50,854 nt of DNA from Bacteroidota bacterium (GTDB taxonomy: Bacteria > Bacteroidota > Bacteroidia > Bacteroidales > GCA-2711565), in the NCBI GenBank assembly GCA_002711565.1, contig PARP01000035.1, positions 1 through 50,854 on the forward strand, written 5' to 3'. Below, in pieces: positions 9,303-32,054 of this stretch. A model generated the notes under the pieces. That model was not told the DNA's origin. It ran no database searches and worked only from the letters and a program-made list of their open reading frames with translations. The position numbers and the translations under genes were made by a program. The first letter of the stretch is position 1. Each line of letters starts with the position of its first letter.

Positions 9303-9388
9303 GTTTCCATGTTTGCACGTTTGCATGTTCACAGGTTTAACCATCTAAATAACAACTTGCAAACCTGCACACTTGCACACCTGCAAAC
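9303..9388. repeat. gene-less inverted pair of 8-bp tandem arrays (GTTTGCAx / CCTGCAAA)
   Basis: The left arm, 9303-9342, has five 8-bp units: GTTTCCAT, GTTTGCAC, GTTTGCAT, GTTCACAG, GTTTAACC. The right arm, 9356-9388, has four units in reverse complement: CTTGCAAA, CCTGCACA, CTTGCACA, CCTGCAAA. A loop of about 13 nt separates them. This is the unit family that brackets the four-helix-bundle gene at 16853-17200. The right arms of the two loci share the 16-mer CTTGCAAACCTGCACA. It lies between the divergent leuS and ftsX genes and contains no gene. Confidence 0.75.
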
Positions 9389-16243: not shown

Positions 16244-16804
16244 TTGAATTGGTTGAAAGAAGAGCGAATCATATTAGGTATTGATCCGGGTACAAATGTA
16301 TTAGGTTATGGCTTAATTTTTTGTAAAGGTAAAAAGATTGAGTTATTAACGATGGATGTTTTAAAGCTTGGTAAAATTGATGATCATGCCTTAAAGCTAA
16401 AAAGAATATTTGATCGACTGGTAGAACTCATCGATACATATCACCCGGATGAATTAGCGATTGAGGCGCCTTTTTATGGTAAGAATGTACAATCAATGTT
16501 AAAGTTAGGGAAAGCTCAAGGGGTGGCCATCGCGGCAGGACTATCAAGAGACTTAACGATTACTGAATACTCTCCAAGAAAAATCAAACAATCAATCACC
16601 GGCAAAGGCAGTGCTTCCAAAGAACAGGTAGCTGCTATGTTACAATCTCTGCTGAAGTTAAAGGAAATCCCATCGCAATTTGACGCTACAGATGGTTTAG
16701 CCGTAGCGGTTTGTCATAGTTATCAGAACAATCACAGTGCTGAAGGAAAGAGTTACGGGAGTTGGAAGAGTTTTTTAAGCCAAAATCCTGATAGGCAGGT
16801 TTAA
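16244..16804 (+). CDS. ruvC: Holliday junction endonuclease RuvC (TTG start)
   Basis: A 186-residue RuvC with GIDPGTNVLGYG (the first catalytic Asp near residue 14), IEAPFYGKN at mid-length and the late DATDGLAVAVCH motif. It cuts Holliday junctions with RuvAB. There is no in-frame ATG: the frame is closed by TGA at 16229, so the start must be TTG at 16244 or, more like family N-termini, TTG at 16253 (giving MKEERIILGIDPGT). The divergent neighbour starts 6 bp away, so the ruvC promoter must lie inside that gene. Confidence 0.9.
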   Translation: MNWLKEERIILGIDPGTNVLGYGLIFCKGKKIELLTMDVLKLGKIDDHALKLKRIFDRLVELIDTYHPDELAIEAPFYGKNVQSMLKLGKAQGVAIAAGLSRDLTITEYSPRKIKQSITGKGSASKEQVAAMLQSLLKLKEIPSQFDATDGLAVAVCHSYQNNHSAEGKSYGSWKSFLSQNPDRQV

Positions 16805-16812
16805 TCATAACT

Positions 16813-16847
16813 GTTTGCAGGTGTGCAGGTTTGCAAGTGTGCAGGTT
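16813..16847. repeat. 8-bp tandem array, cassette A left arm
   Basis: Four full units, GTTTGCAG, GTGTGCAG, GTTTGCAA and GTGTGCAG, plus GTT, starting 9 bp after the ruvC stop. Confidence 0.85.
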
Positions 16848-16852
16848 GATAT

Positions 16853-17200
16853 TTATGTTTTTCTTAAATACTTCATATAATTAAGTAGTTTAGATTTTAA
16901 TTTACCTAATAGCAATAAAGCTTCTGTAGAATTACAAAAATCAAGACGTTCAGCAATTATTAATTGAGTCTCTAACTCAGTAAGTGATCCTACTGAAATA
17001 TTGAGAAAGTGTAAGTTTTCCTTTTTATTTTTTCTTCCTGCACCTTCTGCTATGTTTGAAGGAACTGATACTGAAGATTTCCTAATTTGATGCGTTAATA
17101 CGTAATTCTCTTCCTTTGGAAAGGATTTAGTAAGAGTATAAATTCTGACTGTAAGATCGATAGATAATTTCCAGATGTCTAAATCTTTATAGGTACCCAT
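16853..17200 (-). CDS. four-helix-bundle protein (23S rRNA intervening-sequence/S23 family), 'LETQL' subtype
   Basis: A 115-residue protein of the S23/four-helix-bundle family (PF05635-like). It opens GTYKDLDIWKLSIDL. The signature QIRKSSVSVPSNIAEGAGR lies at 38-56, and SVGSLTELETQL follows. In other bacteria such proteins are encoded within intervening sequences of 23S rRNA genes or, as Avd, in diversity-generating retroelements; neither setting is seen here. The fold makes basic pentameric bundles that bind nucleic acid (family knowledge). It stands alone between inverted 8-bp arrays. It resembles cassette C's protein more than those of cassettes D and E. Confidence 0.88.
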   Translation of the reverse strand: MGTYKDLDIWKLSIDLTVRIYTLTKSFPKEENYVLTHQIRKSSVSVPSNIAEGAGRKNKKENLHFLNISVGSLTELETQLIIAERLDFCNSTEALLLLGKLKSKLLNYMKYLRKT

Positions 17201-17275
17201 AAATAAAAGTTTTGGTTTATAACTACCTATTAATTCCCAAAACTCAATTTCGTCAGCCTATTTCTGAAAAAAAGT

Positions 17276-17314
17276 ACAAACTTGCAAACCTGCACACCTG
17301 CCAACCTGCAAACC
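17276..17314. repeat. 8-bp tandem array, cassette A right arm
   Basis: Units CTTGCAAA, CCTGCACA, CCTGCCAA and CCTGCAAA (17281-17312) are the reverse complement of the left-arm units, with one extra unit. The array ends 6 bp before the end of the formimidoylglutamase-like gene. Confidence 0.85.
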
Positions 17315-17319
17315 TATAC

Positions 17320-18495
17320 CTACATCAGTTTCTGAAACGCCTGCCACCAGCGATCTGGAACATCATTATTACATGCGGTTTCATAATCTTTATATGAACA
17401 TGGAATCAGATGATGGCGCTTGAATTTTACTTTTTGCTGTGATCGGATCGGAACTTCCATCCACCATCGATCACTTTTTTTGCTTTTATAAAATACCATC
17501 TCATCTTTTTGTTCTTCGATCTTCACATGATACTTTACAAATTGGCGCTTATCTTTATATGGGAATTCGTGTTTACGATTATAGAATCCCTCAAAGAAAT
17601 ACCAGATCATTTGAGCTGTTAAATGGGCAGTTTGTCCATGAATATCATATTCGGGATTAAGCTCATAGAATCCAATGGATGTAAGCTTATCGCTCATTCC
17701 AGCGTACCTTGCGATCTTACATGCTTCTTCACCATAAAACCCATTTGGAGAGGCATTTTTATTTCCGGGCGCATCCGAATGACGGATCGCGGATACATCA
17801 AAACTCAATAGGTCAGCATTTCTAACAATCGGTTCAACCTCTTCCATATCAGATTGTACCATACCTAATCTGTAAATATCAAAGAACAGATTTCCCATCA
17901 GATCAATAGCTTCCTGATCTACGAAATAACTTTGGTATCCAAGATTCGAGTAATTAAATAAATAATTCGGTTGATGTAAGATGATCTTGCTTAAATAAGA
18001 TTGTGAATGAATATTTGCTTCAGACTGTCCCAGATCAAATAAAGGATCAACAGAAACAATATTTATAATTTGACCTAAATCTTCGTAGGCTTGATAATTT
18101 GCAAATGTAAGATCCTGACTGCCACCTATAATTACGGGGGTTATTTTACTCTTAATCAGATCTTTAGCAACGTTACTTAGAGCAAAATAGGTATCCTTTA
18201 CCTGATTTCCTTGTTTAATATTTCCAAGGTCCGCGATTTTTGAAGAATAGTTTCCTTCGAATAAACGGTATAGATACTTACGAACCTCATTTGGTGCTTG
18301 TGAACATCCTTTATTATTCACTGCATTACGATCCTCTTGAACTCCGATAATCGCAATATCCATTCCTTTTAGGTCTGGGAATGAAGACTCAGAGTGATAA
18401 GCATGAACTGCATCTCCAAATCTTCTTCGCTTGGTCTTATCTGCAAATTCATAGCCACTAAGATCAATTGGCTCAAAGTAAATATCAATATCCAT
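17320..18495 (-). CDS. formimidoylglutamase-like ureohydrolase-fold protein with degenerate metal site
   Basis: A 391-residue protein of the arginase/agmatinase/HutG fold, in the Bacteroidota-specific form usually annotated formimidoylglutamase. The metal-binding landmarks are altered. The usual GGDH or GGGH is GGSQ (124-127). DAHxD is replaced by VDPLFD (149-154). The last DxDxxD is SFDVSAI (231-237). The His and several Asp ligands of the Mn pair are therefore absent, although the segments are otherwise conserved-looking. It may be catalytically dead, or may use other residues. No hut genes are nearby. Treat the name as a family label, not a function. Confidence 0.75.
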   Translation of the reverse strand: MDIDIYFEPIDLSGYEFADKTKRRRFGDAVHAYHSESSFPDLKGMDIAIIGVQEDRNAVNNKGCSQAPNEVRKYLYRLFEGNYSSKIADLGNIKQGNQVKDTYFALSNVAKDLIKSKITPVIIGGSQDLTFANYQAYEDLGQIINIVSVDPLFDLGQSEANIHSQSYLSKIILHQPNYLFNYSNLGYQSYFVDQEAIDLMGNLFFDIYRLGMVQSDMEEVEPIVRNADLLSFDVSAIRHSDAPGNKNASPNGFYGEEACKIARYAGMSDKLTSIGFYELNPEYDIHGQTAHLTAQMIWYFFEGFYNRKHEFPYKDKRQFVKYHVKIEEQKDEMVFYKSKKSDRWWMEVPIRSQQKVKFKRHHLIPCSYKDYETACNNDVPDRWWQAFQKLM

Positions 18496-18601
18496 AGGGG
18501 TAATTTTTTTACTTCAAATTTAGGAAGGCTTGAAAACCTAAGCACTTTTAAAATGAAAAGTAGTCAACAATGGAGTTTTAATAAATGTGCACGATAGATT
18601 A

Positions 18602-18689
18602 TTCAATAGGTGTTCAATGGGAAATTCGATTGTTGATTCAATAGGTATTCTGTTGGTGTTCAATTGGTAGTTCAATGAGTGTTCATGAG
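18602..18689. repeat. 11-12-bp tandem array, cassette B left arm
   Basis: Eight imperfect units beginning TTC: TTCAATAGGTG, TTCAATGGGAAA, TTCGATTGTTGA, TTCAATAGGTA, TTCTGTTGGTG, TTCAATTGGTAG, TTCAATGAGTG and a partial TTCATGAG. Lengths alternate between 11 and 12 bp. Confidence 0.8.
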
Positions 18690-18743
18690 TTCTCATTTTA
18701 AATTTTCTAAAATATTGCGGACTTTTCAAGCTTTTGGGAATTA

Positions 18744-19112
18744 ATGTATATGCAAAACAACCTAAATACCTTAAGAATTTACACCCAATCTTTACAATTA
18801 AGTAATAGGGTGTGGGATACTTATACTAAACTATCAAAAGAGAATAAATCTATTATCGGGAACCAGATTGTACGATCTACAGATTCAATAGGAGCTAATA
18901 TTGCCGAAGCTTATGGCCGATTTCATATAAAGGATAGTATCAAGTTCTTATATTATTCAAGAGGGTCTCTATACGAAACGATGCATTGGATAAGCCTAAT
19001 GGAAGAAAGAGATCTGATTTCTAAATCAACACATGAGGATTTTATGATTCAAATACAAGATTTAGGTATTCGACTAAACAACTTCATTACTTCTAGGAAA
19101 GCAAAACTATAG
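18744..19112 (+). CDS. four-helix-bundle protein, divergent subtype
   Basis: A 122-residue protein with the family core QIVRSTDSIGANIAEAYGRF, matching the QIRRSSxSIxxNIAEGxGR signature but differing elsewhere. It opens NNLNTLRIYTQSLQLSNRVWD and later has YYSRGSLYETMHW. It is the most diverged of the five copies and the only one with 11-12-bp flanking units. No other gene is in the cassette. A second ATG is two codons in. Function unknown; probably a basic nucleic-acid-binding bundle. Confidence 0.82.
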   Translation: MYMQNNLNTLRIYTQSLQLSNRVWDTYTKLSKENKSIIGNQIVRSTDSIGANIAEAYGRFHIKDSIKFLYYSRGSLYETMHWISLMEERDLISKSTHEDFMIQIQDLGIRLNNFITSRKAKL

Positions 19113-19141
19113 GTTCTAGTGACACTCAATTTTTAAGCAAA

Positions 19142-19224
19142 CACCTATTGAATACCCCATTGAAGACCAATTGAACACCTATCGAAGACCCATTGAACAC
19201 CCCTCGAAGACCCATTGAATCAAC
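19142..19224. repeat. 11-bp tandem array, cassette B right arm
   Basis: Seven units, mostly 11 bp: CACCTATTGAA, TACCCCATTGAA, GACCAATTGAA, CACCTATCGAA, GACCCATTGAA, CACCCCTCGAA, GACCCATTGAA. They are inverted relative to 18602-18689. The array stops about 10 bp before the topA stop codon. Confidence 0.82.
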
Positions 19225-21702: not shown

Positions 21703-21856
21703 TAATTACGAATTACGAATTACGAATTACGAATTACGAATTACGAATTACGAATTACGAATTACGAATTACGAATTACGAGTTACGAGTTGCGGGTTGC
21801 GAGTTACGGGTTACGAGTTGCGAGTTACGGGTTGCGAGTTACGAGTTACGGGTTGC
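21703..21856. repeat. 7-bp tandem array between topA and miaB (GAATTAC then GRGTTRC)
   Basis: Phase-perfect heptamer array: a partial unit, ten GAATTAC units (21710-21779), then eleven units of the form G(A/G)GTT(A/G)C up to 21856. The second half matches the units of cassette E (GAGTTGC, GGGTTAC). There is no four-helix-bundle gene and no inverted partner here. Confidence 0.9.
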
Positions 21857-21870
21857 ATGTGAGCACAAGC

Positions 21871-21974
21871 GCATGAACTTTTGAACTTTTGAACTTTTGA
21901 ACCTCTGAACCTCTGAACCTCTGAACCTCTGAACTCTTGAACCTCTGAACACATAAACACATGAACACATGAAC
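21871..21974. repeat. 8-bp tandem array running into the miaB start codon (xxxTGAAC)
   Basis: Thirteen 8-bp units ending TGAAC (one ends TAAAC): GCATGAAC, three TTTTGAAC, then CTCTGAAC repeated with one TCTTGAAC, ACATAAAC, and two ACATGAAC. The miaB ATG at 21969 is part of the last ACATGAAC. With the 7-bp array it fills most of the 403-bp gap between topA and miaB. Confidence 0.88.
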
Positions 21975-23294
21975 AAACAAAAAAAACTTTATATAGAAAC
22001 CTACGGTTGCCAAATGAATTTTTCGGATAGCGAAATTGTTGGCTCCATCATGAAAGAAAATAATTACCAGTCGACAAAAAATTCTGAGGAGGCGGATGTA
22101 ATCTTCATCAATACATGTTCGATCAGGGATAATGCTGAACAAAGAGTTCGTAAACGTTTAGGTGAGCTAAATGCACTAAAAAAACAAAAGCCGCACTTAA
22201 AGATCGGTGTGTTGGGTTGTATGGCCGAGCGTCTGAAAGAAAAACTTCTTGAAGAAGAGAAAAGTGTAGATATCATTGTTGGTCCGGATGCATATAGAGA
22301 TCTTCCTCAATTGATGGCTGAAGCAGAAAGCGGACAAAAAGCCATTAATGTAATTCTTTCTGCTGATGAAACCTATGCAGATATTACCCCTGTAAAAATT
22401 GATGAAAACAAGATATCTGCTTTTATATCCATTATGAGAGGATGTCAGAACTTCTGCTCATACTGCGTTGTTCCTTTTACAAGAGGAAAAGAAAGAAGCA
22501 GGGATCCGGAAACCATCATTCAGGAAGCTAAAGATCTTTTTGAAAAAGGTTATCGTGAGATCACGCTGTTAGGACAAAATGTGAACTCTTATAGTTTTGA
22601 AGGAAGAGAAAATTATCACTTCCCTAATTTATTAGCTGATGTTGCTGCCGTTAACCCATTATTACGTGTAAGATTTGCAACTTCACATCCTAAAGACATT
22701 TCTGATGATCTAATTAAAACCATAGCCGCATATCCAAATATATGTAAAGCAATTCACCTGCCGGTTCAGTCGGGAAGCACAAATATGCTTACAAAAATGA
22801 ATCGTAAATATACTCGAGAATGGTATTTAGAGCGTATCTCTACCATCAAAAAACATATGCCGGAATGTGCAATCTCAACGGATATTATTGCAGGATTTTG
22901 TGATGAAACTGAAGATGATCATGCAGATACATTAAGCATAATGCAAGAGGTTGGTTATGATTATGCTTTCATGTTTAAATATTCTGAAAGACCTGATACT
23001 GTTGCGGCAAAGAAATTTGAAGACAATATATCCGAAGAAATAAAGAGTAAGCGATTAACTGAAATCATCAATCTTCAGCGGCAATTATCTCACCATAGTA
23101 ATAAAGCTGACATAGGAAAAGTATTTGAAGTTCTTGTTGAGGGAACATCCAAAAAATCGAAAGAACAATTATCTGGCAGAAACAGCCAGAATAAAGTTGT
23201 TGTATTCCCGAAAGAGAACTATAAAGTTGGTGATTACGTTCAAGTGAAGATCACTGATTGTACAACTGCCACGCTAGTTGGAGAAGCGGTATAA
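21969..23294 (+). CDS. miaB: tRNA-2-methylthio-N6-dimethylallyladenosine synthase MiaB
   Basis: A 441-residue methylthiotransferase with the N-terminal cluster cysteines Cys14 (TYGCQMN), Cys50 (NTCSIRD) and Cys84 (GCMAER), the radical-SAM cysteines Cys159, Cys163 and Cys166 (RGCQNFCSYCVVPF), and a C-terminal TRAM domain. It adds a methylthio group to i6A37 of tRNAs. The start codon lies in the tandem array and there is no visible ribosome binding site. The upstream ATG in the preceding unit (21961) is out, because it meets TGA after two codons. Confidence 0.94.
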   Translation: MNKQKKLYIETYGCQMNFSDSEIVGSIMKENNYQSTKNSEEADVIFINTCSIRDNAEQRVRKRLGELNALKKQKPHLKIGVLGCMAERLKEKLLEEEKSVDIIVGPDAYRDLPQLMAEAESGQKAINVILSADETYADITPVKIDENKISAFISIMRGCQNFCSYCVVPFTRGKERSRDPETIIQEAKDLFEKGYREITLLGQNVNSYSFEGRENYHFPNLLADVAAVNPLLRVRFATSHPKDISDDLIKTIAAYPNICKAIHLPVQSGSTNMLTKMNRKYTREWYLERISTIKKHMPECAISTDIIAGFCDETEDDHADTLSIMQEVGYDYAFMFKYSERPDTVAAKKFEDNISEEIKSKRLTEIINLQRQLSHHSNKADIGKVFEVLVEGTSKKSKEQLSGRNSQNKVVVFPKENYKVGDYVQVKITDCTTATLVGEAV

Positions 23295-23299
23295 CGAAG

Positions 23300-23345
23300 A
23301 AACGGATAAACGGATAAACGGATAAACGGATAAACGGATAAACGG
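23300..23345. repeat. 8-bp tandem array, cassette C left arm (AAACGGAT)
   Basis: Five perfect AAACGGAT units plus AAACGG. The same unit recurs at 28018-28056 after cysNC. Confidence 0.9.
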
Positions 23346-23425
23346 TAAGACAGAATTATTCCTCTTAAAATGTGTGACTTTTTCAAATTTCAGGAACTAA
23401 TAGGTTAAATATTAAACCTATTCTT

Positions 23426-23782
23426 ATGTCAACTCACAAAAATCTAGAAGTTTGGAAAAAATCTATCGACTTGGTTATATCGATTTATAATACAACAAAA
23501 ACATTTCCCGAGGATGAAAAATTTGGTTTATCCTCCCAACTTAAAAGAGCTGCAATTTCAATACCTTCTAATATTTCAGAAGGTGCATCTCGCAATGGAA
23601 TAAAAGAATACTTGCACTTTTTATATATTTCATTGGGTTCAGCATCTGAAATTGAAACACAATTAATCATAGCTGAAAAACTTGGATACAAAATAGACAG
23701 TAATCTATTAGATGAAATTAACCATCTAAAGGCTATGTTAATCAATTATATAAGCTATAAAAAGAGAGGTTTAAAGAAATGA
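23426..23782 (+). CDS. four-helix-bundle protein, 'LETQL' subtype
   Basis: A 118-residue S23-family protein opening THKNLEVWKKSIDLVISIYN. The core is QLKRAAISIPSNISEGASR, then SLGSASEIETQLIIAEKLGY. It is clearly the same subtype as the cassette A protein (both have xLxVW or xLDIW openings, FPxxE and ETQLIIAE). Both are flanked by 8-bp units of different sequence. It lies between miaB and the convergent ppa. Confidence 0.88.
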   Translation: MSTHKNLEVWKKSIDLVISIYNTTKTFPEDEKFGLSSQLKRAAISIPSNISEGASRNGIKEYLHFLYISLGSASEIETQLIIAEKLGYKIDSNLLDEINHLKAMLINYISYKKRGLKK

Positions 23783-23797
23783 ACCGACCTATCTATA

Positions 23798-23845
23798 ATC
23801 CGTTATACGTTTATACGTTTTACCGCTTAAACGTTTAAACGTTTG
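23798..23845. repeat. 8-bp tandem array, cassette C right arm
   Basis: Six units: ATCCGTTA, TACGTTTA, TACGTTTT, ACCGCTTA, AACGTTTA, AACGTTTG. They are the diverged inverse of AAACGGAT. The ppa stop codon (TAA on the minus strand) and its last two codons lie inside it. Confidence 0.78.
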
Positions 23846-24506: not shown

Positions 24507-24554
24507 TGCTGTAAAGATTATATTTTGGTACAAAATTACTGCTTTTTTATTGAG

Positions 24555-24631
24555 GTTTGCAAGTTTGCAGGCCTGCAAGTTTGCTGGTTTGTTAAATTGT
24601 CTTAAACCTGAGAACTTGCAAACTTGCAAAC
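24555..24631. repeat. gene-less inverted pair of 8-bp arrays (GTTTGCAA) between ppa and cysD
   Basis: The left arm, 24555-24594, has units GTTTGCAA, GTTTGCAG, GCCTGCAA, GTTTGCTG, GTTTGTTA. The right arm has CTTGCAAA twice (24615-24630). A perfect 15-bp inverted repeat joins 24555-24569 and 24617-24631. The unit family is that of cassette A, but no gene lies inside. Confidence 0.8.
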
Positions 24632-24644
24632 TTTCTTATCTTTG
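24616..24644 (+). promoter_or_regulatory. candidate cysD promoter, upstream half inside the array
   Basis: TATCTTTG at 24637-24644 matches TAnnTTTG exactly. The best upstream element is CTTG/TTG at 24615-24618, about 18 bp away, inside the array's right arm. The cysD ATG is at 24683. The array may thus have supplied or replaced part of the promoter. Confidence 0.5.
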
Positions 24645-24682: not shown

Positions 24683-25591
24683 ATGAAGAAGTACAATTTA
24701 AGTCACCTGAGAGAGTTAGAGGCAGAATCTATCCATATCATTCGTGAAGTTGCAGCAGAGTTTGAAAATCCGGTAATGCTTTATTCGATCGGTAAAGATT
24801 CTTCTGTGATGGTAAGACTGGCCGAAAAAGCATTTGCTCCTGGTAAAGTCCCTTTCCCTTTAATGCATATCGACTCAAAATGGAAATTCCAGGAAATGGT
24901 TGAATTCAGAGATCATTATGCCAAGGAAAAAGGTTGGGATCTGATTGTACATTATAATAAAGAAGCTTTTGAAAGTGGTGTTGGCCCATTCTCCCATGGA
25001 AGTAAAGTTCATACGGATATCATGAAAACACAGGCTTTATTGGAAGGACTGACGAAGCATGGCTTTGATGCTGCTTTCGGAGGTGCGCGTAGAGATGAAG
25101 AAAAATCCAGAGCCAAAGAGCGTATCTATTCATTCAGAGACAAATTTCATCAGTGGGATCCAAAAAATCAACGCCCGGAATTATGGAATATCTATAACTC
25201 GAAAGTTCATAAAGGTGAGTCAATTCGTGTATTCCCATTATCAAACTGGACAGAGCTCGATATCTGGCAATATATCCGATTAGAACAAATACCAATCGTA
25301 CCATTATATTATGCAAAAGAACGTCCAATTGTAGAGTATAATGGTGCTTTAGTATTGGTTGACGATGAGAGAATGCCTAAAGAACTGGCCGAAACTGCGG
25401 AAATGAAAATGGTCAGGTTCAGAACCCTTGGATGTTATCCTTTAACAGGTGCTGTTGAATCATCTGCCGATACCATTGAAGAGATCGTTGAAGAAATGAT
25501 GGTCACAACCAAATCAGAACGTACTACACGTGTTATCGACTTCGACCAAGAAGGATCTATGGAACAAAAGAAGAGAGAGGGGTATTTCTAG
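24683..25591 (+). CDS. cysD: sulfate adenylyltransferase subunit 2 CysD
   Basis: A 302-residue CysD. The PP-loop is [18 protein letters not shown] near the N-terminus, then [17 protein letters not shown], and the standard C-terminal [12 protein letters not shown]. It forms ATP sulfurylase with CysN and makes adenosine phosphosulfate from sulfate and ATP. The TAG stop codon is the first three bases of the cassette D array (TAGTTGC). Cassette D separates it from cysN, with which it would normally be adjacent. Confidence 0.94.
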
Positions 25592-25637
25592 TTGCTAGTT
25601 GCTGGTTGCTGGTTGCTAGTTGCTGGTTGCTGGTTAA
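25589..25637. repeat. 7-bp tandem array, cassette D left arm
   Basis: Seven units: TAGTTGC twice, TGGTTGC twice, TAGTTGC, TGGTTGC, TGGTTAA. The first unit supplies the cysD stop codon. Confidence 0.9.
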
Positions 25638-25650
25638 ATAAAATAAATAT

Positions 25651-26031
25651 ATGAGTAGTTATAAAGATCTTGAGATATACAAAATGGCTTTTGAGCTTGC
25701 CATTGAAGTTCATTATCTCAGTCTGAAACTTCCTTCATTTGAAAAGTTTGAACAGGGCAGTCAAATTCGACGATCCTCAAAAAGTATAAAAGATCAAATC
25801 GCTGAAGGCTACGGACGTAGAAGGTATAAGGCTGATTTTATCAAATTCTTAATCTATGCACAAGCATCCTGTGATGAATGTGTTAGTCAGGCAGAAATGA
25901 TTGCTCAATTATATAACGAAACAAAGGGATGGAAAGAATTAATTGAAAAATACAACTTGTTAGGCAAGAAACTTAATCGATTCATTCAATATGTAGAACA
26001 AAGTTGGAATAAACCAGGAACAAGGAACTAG
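25651..26031 (+). CDS. four-helix-bundle protein, 'SCDE' subtype
   Basis: A 126-residue S23-family protein opening SSYKDLEIYKMAFELAIEVH. The core is [20 protein letters not shown], followed by IYAQASCDECVSQAEMIAQL. It is close to the protein of cassette E (same openings, same [16 protein letters not shown], same ASCDE). Its last residues, about PGTRN, and its TAG stop are translated from the right-hand repeat array, so the array has grown or inserted into the gene end. It sits between cysD and cysNC. Confidence 0.88.
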   Translation: MSSYKDLEIYKMAFELAIEVHYLSLKLPSFEKFEQGSQIRRSSKSIKDQIAEGYGRRRYKADFIKFLIYAQASCDECVSQAEMIAQLYNETKGWKELIEKYNLLGKKLNRFIQYVEQSWNKPGTRN

Positions 26032-26067
26032 GAACTAGGAACTAGAACCCAGAAACCAGAAACCATT
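26012..26067. repeat. 7-bp tandem array, cassette D right arm
   Basis: Eight units in strict phase: AACCAGG, AACAAGG, AACTAGG twice, AACTAGA, ACCCAGA, AACCAGA, AACCATT. They are inverted relative to the left arm, with about one mismatch per unit. Confidence 0.88.
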
Positions 26068-28012: not shown

Positions 28013-28077
28013 ACTGGAGACGGATAAACGGGGAAACGGATAAACGGATAAACGGTACTTTGATTCGGTTTCACAAA

Positions 28078-28134
28078 AGGATGACTTCTTCGAGTGCTTG
28101 TACTGAGCCGAAGTATGCGAGCAGATGTCATCCT
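28078..28134. repeat. GGATGAC hairpin element, copy 1
   Basis: It starts AGGATGACTTCTTCG and ends GCAGATGTCATCCT; the ends are inverted copies. The same element, with a shorter middle, is at 31209-31248. This REP-like type is widespread in Bacteroidota. Confidence 0.7.
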
Positions 28135-28192
28135 GGATTGTTAGGAGCGCAATCAATCTGCTTACTGTTTGCCGGTACGACAACTTCGAACT

Positions 28193-28224
28193 TCGAACAC
28201 TTGCCCTGAGTTTATCGAAGGGTC
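28193..28224. repeat. 32-bp dispersed element, copy 1 (core CCCTGAGTTTATCGAAGGG)
   Basis: Identical over 32 bp to 29802-29833. A third, inverted and diverged copy is at 31944-31965. The core is an imperfect palindrome (CCCTgAg / cGaAGGG). Both direct copies follow TCGAAC-type heptamers. Confidence 0.75.
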
Positions 28225-28327
28225 AAACTACTGTGGATGATTCGATAGTTAATTCAATTGTTGATTCAAAATCGGTAAACGTTATTTAGGCATAGCCATA
28301 TTCTTAACCCGATACTCGTAACACGAA

Positions 28328-28924
28328 TCACGAATCACGAATCACCAGATAGGCGCTTTCCGACCAGCGATTGTTATTTTGCCAAAATACATAGTACTCT
28401 TTATTTACAGCTGGATTGTGAGGCAAACGAAAGAGTCCATCTTCCCTCCTCACCTGACTTTCAATCAATTCAACATGGAAACTCTCATCCAAGCTGATAA
28501 TAAAAAGAAGATCTTTTCCTCTTTTCGAGCCAGATGTATTAAAATCCCATGTAAACTCAATGAAGTCTGCCTTCTTAAATGCTAGAACATTTGTAAACTT
28601 TAAATTGTTTTTAGGCACAAGCTTTAAATGTTGGTAAAAAGGAATGCCGGAATCCATGGCCAATAAATTTTCTCTGATAAATTGAATATATCCGCTATAC
28701 TTATGGTATTTCATTACCGGATTCCAATACTGATGAATGAGTAATTTCAAAGAATTACCGGCTAGCTTAATGGTTCTTTCAAAGCGAGCACGATTTAATT
28801 GTTGGCGGGCGGTTCTCGGATTGGTCATTTGAGAAGGCCAGGATCGAAAACATTGCTTACCTAAATAATCATATTGGATGACTTTTTTTTCAGAAGTAAT
28901 CATCTTTACATTCTTTTGACTCAT
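28328..28924 (-). CDS. DUF6266-like protein
   Basis: About 198 residues from ATG 28924 (MSQKNVKMITSEKK); a TTG start at 28969 would add 15 residues. The segment MTNPRTARQQLNRARFERTI resembles the NPRTxxQQxxRAxF motif of DUF6266, a Bacteroidota family of unknown function. A beta-rich C-terminal half follows. The last codons (VIRDS) and the stop are translated from 7-bp CACGAAT repeats, so the native end has probably been replaced. It is alone in a repeat-dense island. Confidence 0.65.
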   Translation of the reverse strand: MSQKNVKMITSEKKVIQYDYLGKQCFRSWPSQMTNPRTARQQLNRARFERTIKLAGNSLKLLIHQYWNPVMKYHKYSGYIQFIRENLLAMDSGIPFYQHLKLVPKNNLKFTNVLAFKKADFIEFTWDFNTSGSKRGKDLLFIISLDESFHVELIESQVRREDGLFRLPHNPAVNKEYYVFWQNNNRWSESAYLVIRDS

Positions 28925-29239: not shown

Positions 29240-29420
29240 TGAGCCACTAGTCGCTATATAGCTCAAGCGTTCAGAAGTTCAGAGGTTCAAAGGTAAGGAA
29301 CTTCAAACTTCGAACAACTAGTTACTGGTTGCTGGTTACGAAAAAGCTTAAAGCCTCAAACTTCAAACTTCCTTGGTGTACTTTGTGAAAAGCTTTGTGG
29401 TCTTAGTGGTTAATTGAGGA

Positions 29421-29529
29421 GAGACGGAGAAACGGAGAAAGTAATGTGCTAATTAGTTAATGTGCTGATGTGCCAATTATTTTAGACACAAGATTCAAGA
29501 CTCGAGACATTAAAGTAACTCGCTGGTTA
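29421..29529. repeat. 109-bp direct repeat, copy 2
   Basis: Second copy, offset by exactly 290 bp from the first. The two near-identical copies point to a recent duplication. Confidence 0.85.
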
Positions 29530-31059: not shown

Positions 31060-31539
31060 TGATAAATGGATGTTCAATGGGTAATTCAATGGGTGTTCAG
31101 TTGGGATTCAATAGGTATTAAATTGCCCCAAGCACCATGCGGGATTAGGTTAAGGTAAAGATTGAGACTAAGAATTTAAGGTTCCGGATTCGGAGGTTCA
31201 AAAAGAAAGGATGACTTCTTCGAGTGAAACGAAGCAGATGTCATCCTGGAAATTTAAAAGGCGATCAATCGGGTTAAATAGTTGAATAGTTAAATAGAAA
31301 GACAACTTCAAGCATCGAACTTTAAACTTCGACATCGAACAACTAGTCACTAGTTACTGGTTGCTGAACACGAAACACGAATCACGAAACACGAAACACG
31401 ATCATCAAACATCCTTGAAAAGCTTGTAATTCCAGTAAAAAAACATCTTTTTCCTTGACAATGCATTTAAGATCGAGTAAATTTGATACTCAATCTTGAG
31501 TTGCGAGTTGTGGGTTATGAGACACTTAAGTACATATCA
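31060..31539. repeat. gene-free repeat mosaic between the ATPase and cassette E
   Basis: No gene is seen. It holds 11-12-bp TTCAATGGGTG-type units (31073-31117, cassette B family), the second GGATGAC hairpin element (31209-31248), AATAGTTA-like 8-bp units near 31270, heptamers CTAGTTA/CTGGTTG (31343-31363) running directly into AACACGA heptamers (31367-31401), and the left arm of cassette E (31498-31525). Confidence 0.75.
31209..31248. repeat. GGATGAC hairpin element, copy 2
   Basis: AGGATGACTTCTTCG, a short middle, then CGAAGCAGATGTCATCCT. The ends are inverted copies. Shorter than copy 1 at 28078-28134. Confidence 0.72.
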
Positions 31540-31980
31540 ATGAAAAACTATAAAGATTTAAAAATCTATCAATTAGCATTTAGTCTTTCTATAGAAGTCC
31601 ACCATTTCTCATTAGAATTACCCAAAATTGAATTATTTGAACAGGGGAGTCAGTTAAGAAGGTCGAGTAAGAGTATTAAGGACAATATTGCAGAGGGTTA
31701 TGGAAGGAGAAGGTATAAATCTGACTTTATACGCTTCTTAGTTTTCGCTCACGCATCTTGTGACGAAACAATAAATCACCTTGAAACGATCAAACAAATA
31801 TATCGGGAATTAAAGTGTGAGGATTTGCTAAACAAATATGACCAATTAGGACGTCAGTTAAATTCATTTATTAAGTATGTTGAAAATAATTGGAATAGCA
31901 ATAAGCTCAATGAAGATTTATCTAATTACGAACTCGTAACCCGCCCTTCGATTTCACTCAGGGACCCGGGCTATTTATAA
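31540..31980 (+). CDS. four-helix-bundle protein, 'SCDE' subtype, with repeat-derived C-terminus
   Basis: 146 residues from ATG 31540 ([20 protein letters not shown]). The core is [20 protein letters not shown], then [15 protein letters not shown]. It is the closest relative of the cassette D protein. The four-helix domain ends near WNSNK; the remaining roughly 20 residues, from [13 protein letters not shown] onward, translate the right-hand heptamer array and the element inserted in it. The frame is open further upstream to 31483, but that part is repeat. Confidence 0.86.
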
Positions 31981-31995
31981 ATTAAAAGGTCAAAA

Positions 31996-32051
31996 CCGTA
32001 ACCCGTAACTCGAAACCCGAAACCCGTAACCCGTAACCCGTAACCCGTAAC
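31996..32051. repeat. 7-bp tandem array, cassette E right arm (CCGTAAC)
   Basis: Eight units in strict phase: CCGTAAC twice, TCGAAAC, CCGAAAC, CCGTAAC four times. Inverse of the GRGTTRC-type left arm. It touches the ATG of the next gene (32055). Confidence 0.9.
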
Positions 32052-32054
32052 CCA

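Follow-up and report, generated by a model that had tools for sequence, protein, structure and literature searches.

S23 genes between inverted arrays of short lineage-specific units, and dispersed gene-less arrays of the same units, in a Bacteroidales genome and its relatives

Cassette A and its surroundings

The window, by which we mean the whole 50,854-nt stretch of DNA that was analysed, corresponds to contig C16 in a Bacteroidales genome (G000) of 2.07 Mb and 72% completeness. Between ruvC and an arginase-family gene it carries an element, here called cassette A, in which a single S23 gene is enclosed by two arms built of GTKTGCAR octamers in inverted arrays (Table 1). The protein matched PF05635 at E 3e-35 (121.1 bits, curated cut-off 33.8) and TIGR02436 at E 3.3e-33 (114.2 bits, curated cut-off 24), which places it in the S23 family; at E 0.001 only S23/Avd families matched it, and no Y1 (HUH) tyrosine transposase. 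S23 genes are common and often annotated as 'four helix bundle protein', and we know of no function for them. Profile matches and the solved relatives 2gsc and 2rld indicate no known nuclease for the S23 fold.

The initial annotation had listed the units of the arms with their order and coordinates, and these were confirmed; the sequence likeness of the arms is far above chance. The three left-arm units it named are present, but the list omitted a fourth (GTGTGCAG, 16837-16844), and the perfect inverted match that it gave as 18 bp is real but measures 22 bp (16817-16838 and 17280-17301); a longer inverted match covers 29 bp at 93%. Scored against each other the two arms reach 48, compared with at most 23 when either is paired with the arms of other cassettes. 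Near-matches to GTTTGCAGGT number 22 in the window against 2.34 expected, a count reached in 0 of 100 shuffles. An Rfam scan of the window returned no family at gathering score.

Table 1. Positions of cassette A, its neighbours and other arrays and S23 cassettes in the window.
Feature	Position	Strand	Details
ruvC	16244-16804	+	
Left inverted array, cassette A	16813-16847	+	GTTTGCAG GTGTGCAG GTTTGCAA GTGTGCAG GTT, from outside inward
S23 gene, cassette A	16853-17200	-	PF05635 23S_rRNA_IVP / TIGR02436 four helix bundle protein, 115 aa
Right inverted array, cassette A	17277-17315	-	GTTTGCAG GTTGGCAG GTGTGCAG GTTTGCAA, minus strand, from outside inward
Arginase-family gene	17320-18495	-	
Gene-less inverted array (hairpin), GTKTGCAR unit	9303-9388		contains a third copy of the 18-mer (9355-9372, minus strand)
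Second gene-less inverted array, GTKTGCAR unit	24553-24633		
S23 cassette, inverted 11-bp arrays (TTCAATTGGTG type)	18600-19219	+	gene 18744-19112
S23 cassette, AAACGGAT / AAACGTAT arrays	23293-23844	+	gene 23426-23782
S23 cassette, 7-bp GTTGCTG arrays	25591-26065	+	gene 25651-26031
S23 cassette, 7-bp arrays	31367-32053	+	AACACGA upstream, GTTACGG downstream; gene in ORF 31483-31980
Long single-orientation arrays	21704-21975		AATTACG (about 21 copies), then TGAACCTC (about 10 copies), ahead of an ORF at 21969
Intergenic mosaics without an S23 gene	28020-28345 and 29269-29477		ACGGATAA, AACTTCG, CACGAAT, GTTCAGAG and others

We found no ortholog of cassette A: the ruvC-arginase junction was without an S23 gene in all eight relatives examined (five congeners and three others). 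When occupied sites were set beside empty ones by eye, no clear target-site duplication was apparent. In one genome (G004, locus L052) another inverted-repeat element, of TGTCATCCTGAACGAAG type and with its own outer short repeats, occupies the site of cassette A.

The window's genome holds 16 S23 genes by protein match and 19 by profile, five of them inside the window. TRF reported arrays beside each of these five, with differing units. The arms of the cassette at 31367-32053 match each other poorly, and the intergenic slot of the one at 25591-26065 carries S23 cassettes in two other genomes (G001 and G002) and none in a third (G005).

Matching of the arms across S23 cassettes

S23 genes across phyla bear inverted arrays of 7-, 8- or 11-bp units, and the unit varies among cassettes while being common to both arms of each. 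A scan of genome contigs supplied 80 further S23 loci from many phyla, and in the 89 cassettes that passed an arm-score filter the units were mostly of 7 or 8 bp. Starting from 120 genes, 108 had 200 bp of flank on both sides; own arms outscored every mismatched control in 67 of these and did not in 41. In a set of 132 cassettes (155 before removal of short proteins or flanks and of repeated flanks), the own-arm score averaged 35.2 and was at least 30 in 55%, a level reached by about 1% of unrelated cassette pairs and by 62% of eight non-syntenic pairs at 65-75% protein identity. Cross pairs within one genome seldom reached a score of 34 (2 of 182 in G000, 3 of 380 in G002). Within the same 20-kb loci, matching arms flank 10 of 19 S23 genes and 8 of the 470 other ORFs, and are thus specific to S23. 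The upstream arm is richer in G than in C in 50 of 55 cassettes, indicating that the arrays hold a preferred polarity relative to the gene. Some S23 genes are without array arms, namely two sets of homologs at 94-95% protein identity (L193/L214 and L194/L215), which perhaps have been taken over by the host.

One explanation for matched arms is copying, in which template switching, or conversion between the inverted arms, would repeatedly overwrite one arm with the sequence of the other. The initial annotation had read the shared unit order of cassette A as meaning that one arm was copied from the other or that both are kept paired. That deduction fails for cassette A: given the units, 20% of permutations yield a match of at least 22 bp and 67% equal the alignment score, and a separate order test with arms defined by periodicity gave p 0.45; moreover, the 18-mer recurs in the gene-less array at 9303-9388. 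As the order is not beyond chance, we rejected it as proof of copying there. Among 93 testable cassettes unit order carries a weak signal in favour of copying, with a mean mid-p of 0.40 in 64 broadly sampled cassettes and 0.36 in 29 from Flavobacterium (Wilcoxon 0.015 and 0.009, respectively); it is a weak indicator at the level of the family and nothing usable in cassette A. Perfect shared blocks that include an odd-length unit, as in L158, likewise favour copying.

Several orthologous S23 cassettes could be compared between G001 and G002, whose genome identity is about 91%. In one pair, both the 5’ and the 3’ arm of one genome carry an insertion, and the arms are otherwise near-identical; a second keeps a GAAATA core while the variable bases diverge independently between the two arms; another shows small length changes, separate in each arm; and in yet another the S23 gene and both arms differ between agreeing flanks. 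At L213 the left array has gained many new 16-bp units and the right array is unchanged, which argues against copying. The contention that the arms are not each expanded by slippage is thus contradicted in the short term, since a single arm expands and mutates alone at this genome identity.

Greater depth was available in Flavobacterium, where 66 of 299 genomes searched held relatives of one S23 protein, and 73 matches were taken with their flanks. Calls by simple patterns distinguished three unit types: TTAGTCC (CC), TAGTGAT/TAGTAAT (GA) and TAGGCAT (GC). Both arms could be typed in 61 of the 73 rows (59 of them distinct), and the type was the same on both sides in 60. On the S23 tree, arm type changes only twice. 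One insertion site lies between genes that we take, from the ORFs of L229, to be gmk and nadD, and a second, judged by its flanks, is presumably sdhA-sdhB. The gmk-nadD order is likewise annotated for F. columnare in the available part of a table in PMC5524665. The tree speaks against arm type being set by the site rather than by the protein, as it separates the GA-type and GC-type S23 proteins of the sdhA-sdhB-like site. That separation is not firm: an AU test did not reject one clade for both groups (p 0.37), so that at this site it is possible either that arm type travelled with the gene or that it switched in place.

Scoring own arms against arms swapped between relatives places the matching on a time scale. 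Across 25 Flavobacterium sister pairs, own arms had no advantage over swapped ones (12 up, 7 down, 6 equal; p 0.30). The mean excess of own over swapped arms was 0 at 97-100% protein identity and -0.12 at 92-97%, rose to 2.45, 8.30 and 6.61 in successively lower identity bands, and reached 31.9 between types. Permutation within types equalled the observed mean excess in 1 of 2000 trials, a figure that is no clean probability as the rows are related. Together, the null result in sister pairs and the rise with divergence indicate that the arms are kept matched slowly; rapid copying is not seen. The surviving content of 'kept paired' is accordingly confined to long time scales, at which unit type agrees and the excess grows with protein divergence, with no concerted change at short ones; cassette A being without an ortholog, it is other cassettes that show both the recent one-arm changes and the joint drift at depth. 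Beyond a protein difference of about 10%, own arms are more alike than arms swapped within one type, which is also what copying would give, but orthologs of at least 92% identity lack the concerted change it entails, and we consider copying an unlikely explanation.

The arms might instead be complementary because the transcript must fold into a stem-loop, as in the intervening sequences (IVS) of 23S rRNA, which are cut by RNase III. The gene-sense RNA of cassette A does fold with its arms paired (-128 kcal/mol, z -4.9), but so low an energy is expected because any inverted repeat gives one. Among arm mismatches, G.U-compatible and incompatible changes were balanced (61:61 and 19:20, in an analysis that retained 89 of 201 cassettes by arm score), and with this null wobble test we rejected RNA pairing as the constraint on the arms. 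According to the available text of PMC4990558, the hairpins of rRNA IVS carry an S23 ORF in their loop; cassette A shares this layout, its terminal inverted repeats forming the stem around the ORF. It adjoins ruvC and an arginase-family gene rather than lying inside an rRNA gene, however, and the cassettes in general differ from IVS in sitting between protein genes, in having lineage-specific tandem arrays as arms and in having dispersed gene-less relatives. Despite the likeness of an S23-family protein inside an inverted-repeat hairpin, we judge folding of the transcript decidedly unlikely to be what keeps the arms alike.

Ordinary slippage, in which the arms would each have grown alone from a short inverted sequence that they once shared, with no force keeping them alike, would account for the one-armed expansion and the independent substitutions in orthologs. 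It leaves unexplained that arms have changed unit type together, that the own-over-swapped excess grows with divergence and that S23 arms match far more than the flanks of other genes, and we find it very improbable. That the arms are recombination sites of a switch that flips the S23 gene is scarcely credible: in one case the gene is inverted between its arms with colinear flanks in the close genomes G001 and G002 (L192, 8714-9174, and L213, 9775-10237), but no flip was seen among gmk-nadD cassettes whose flanks were listed, and a cysD-cysN-like slot keeps its orientation in G000, G001 and G002.

Gene-less arrays of the cognate unit

Units of the cassettes also occur as arrays away from any S23 gene. 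The GTKTGCAR pattern has 34 matches in G000 and 2, 2, 0, 0 and 0 in five congeners. In Flavobacterium the counts cover the CC and GC patterns, in genomes of which some are incomplete; the first surveys of dispersed patterns covered 80 of 86 chosen genomes. At least five GC-type arrays were found in 12 of 13 genomes with a GC-type S23 gene and in 23 of 286 others (p 1e-11, a value that ignores kinship). In these 23 no GC-type S23 was detected, and one of them (G078) has 52 such arrays. We rejected the notion that the G078 repeats are recent copies of one element, because in that genome each is a short single array within a mosaic of other arrays. The median number of CC-pattern matches was 12 in the CC-type genomes (n = 18), 1 in the GA-type (n = 36) and 0 in the GC-type (n = 12); at least five occurred in 8 of the 36 GA-type genomes, partly because the CC pattern, with one mismatch allowed, overlaps GA units. 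The link between S23 lineage and arrays may reflect shared genome ancestry, the rows being related.

None of 40 array loci fetched contained an S23 ORF. Among the CC-type and GC-type loci, several (L323, L327-L332) consist of two inverted arrays around a short spacer; in G000 and G078 many of the dispersed arrays stand alone, with no inverted partner. Gmk-nadD junctions that are without S23 often hold hairpins of varied type and are near-empty in other genomes. In G067, a gene-less CC-type hairpin lies at a junction, presumably yicC-gmk, where several GA-type genomes hold an S23 cassette. Another Flavobacterium genome (G222) has 267 GC-type array matches, far above any other genome searched.

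Among genomes counted as GC-type is G331, whose S23 gene (L367) is 80% identical to L287 but has two in-frame stops; its GC-type arms were confirmed, and the genome has 40 dispersed GC-type matches. Perhaps this gene is decaying while its arrays persist. Elsewhere S23 proteins are under purifying selection, with a median dN/dS of 0.07 in 22 Flavobacterium pairs and values of 0.08-0.22 in four pairs from the window's genus. Copies within a genome are distinct, the maximum identity being 0.61 in G000 and 0.75 in G002. That array words are common to a cassette and its host genome hints at an unrecognised partnership of gene and repeat.

A proposed partnership of S23 genes and repeat arrays

The closest parallel is with REPINs and their RAYT genes, as characterised in the available portions of PMC3116915 and PMC3686654. 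As there, inverted cognate repeats stand on either side of the cassette gene, the units are also dispersed as gene-less inverted doublets (mainly as single arrays in some genomes), and S23, like RAYT, is kept as a distinct single-copy gene. PMC3686654, as far as its text was available, further describes an 'orthoswitch', in which orthologous RAYT genes have different cognate repeats. The likeness has limits: the cassette protein, a four-helix bundle of the S23 family, gave no Y1/HUH match, the cassette repeats consist of 7-11 bp units in tandem and not of single palindromes, and whereas a REPIN is a palindrome with a conserved 5’ tetranucleotide, GTTTGCAG, TAGTCCT and AGGCATT are not palindromes.

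Two other systems are more distant. The cassette A protein resembles Avd of diversity-generating retroelements at 26 bits for bAvd and 27.7 bits for DivGenRetAVD, below the respective cut-offs of 40 and 80, and its neighbours are ruvC and the arginase-family gene, not a reverse transcriptase and template repeat; a likeness of PF05635 to Avd is mentioned in the accessible part of PMC10053308. Intergenic arrays of the TAACTGA heptamer in Beggiatoaceae, Cyanobacteria and Bacteroidetes are reported in the available text of PMC4679880; the cassettes also have 7-bp tandem units in intergenic DNA, but those heptamer arrays are, in that text, almost only direct repeats whereas S23 cassettes are inverted, and the same portion of the paper contains no S23, intervening or helix-bundle term. 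Among the matches listed in a search of open-licence PubMed Central text, we found no earlier description of a partnership between an S23 gene and arrays.

With moderate confidence, and by analogy with REPIN/RAYT, we propose that cassette A belongs to a widespread partnership of that kind built on S23, in which the S23 lineage would set the unit. The S23 gene occupies the loop of a hairpin, the stem of which is made of a short unit repeated in tandem on both sides in inverted orientation. Each S23 lineage has its own unit in both arms, the same unit forming gene-less arrays, often inverted pairs, throughout the genome; the gene would be kept as a single distinct copy while its cognate repeats spread separately. 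Over short times the arms mutate and slip independently; over long times they stay matched, most likely because each must fit the same trans-acting partner. That partner may be the S23 protein itself or a protein working with it, which would bind the unit, and hairpins may spread through such binding. Rare conversion or inversion through the arms perhaps helps the matching.

More tentatively, S23 proteins may be nuclease-less, trans-acting keepers of a large and so far unrecognised class of hairpins, each lineage with a private word of 7-11 bp that is held on both sides of the gene, spread or maintained genome-wide, and switched in both arms over evolution. If so, rRNA intervening sequences and Avd would be special cases of one hairpin-handling family. 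The tie between an S23 lineage and a private repeat word suggests a directly testable role for S23. Such a link would also account for some of the short tandem arrays found between bacterial genes, and would offer a transposase-free parallel to REPIN/RAYT.
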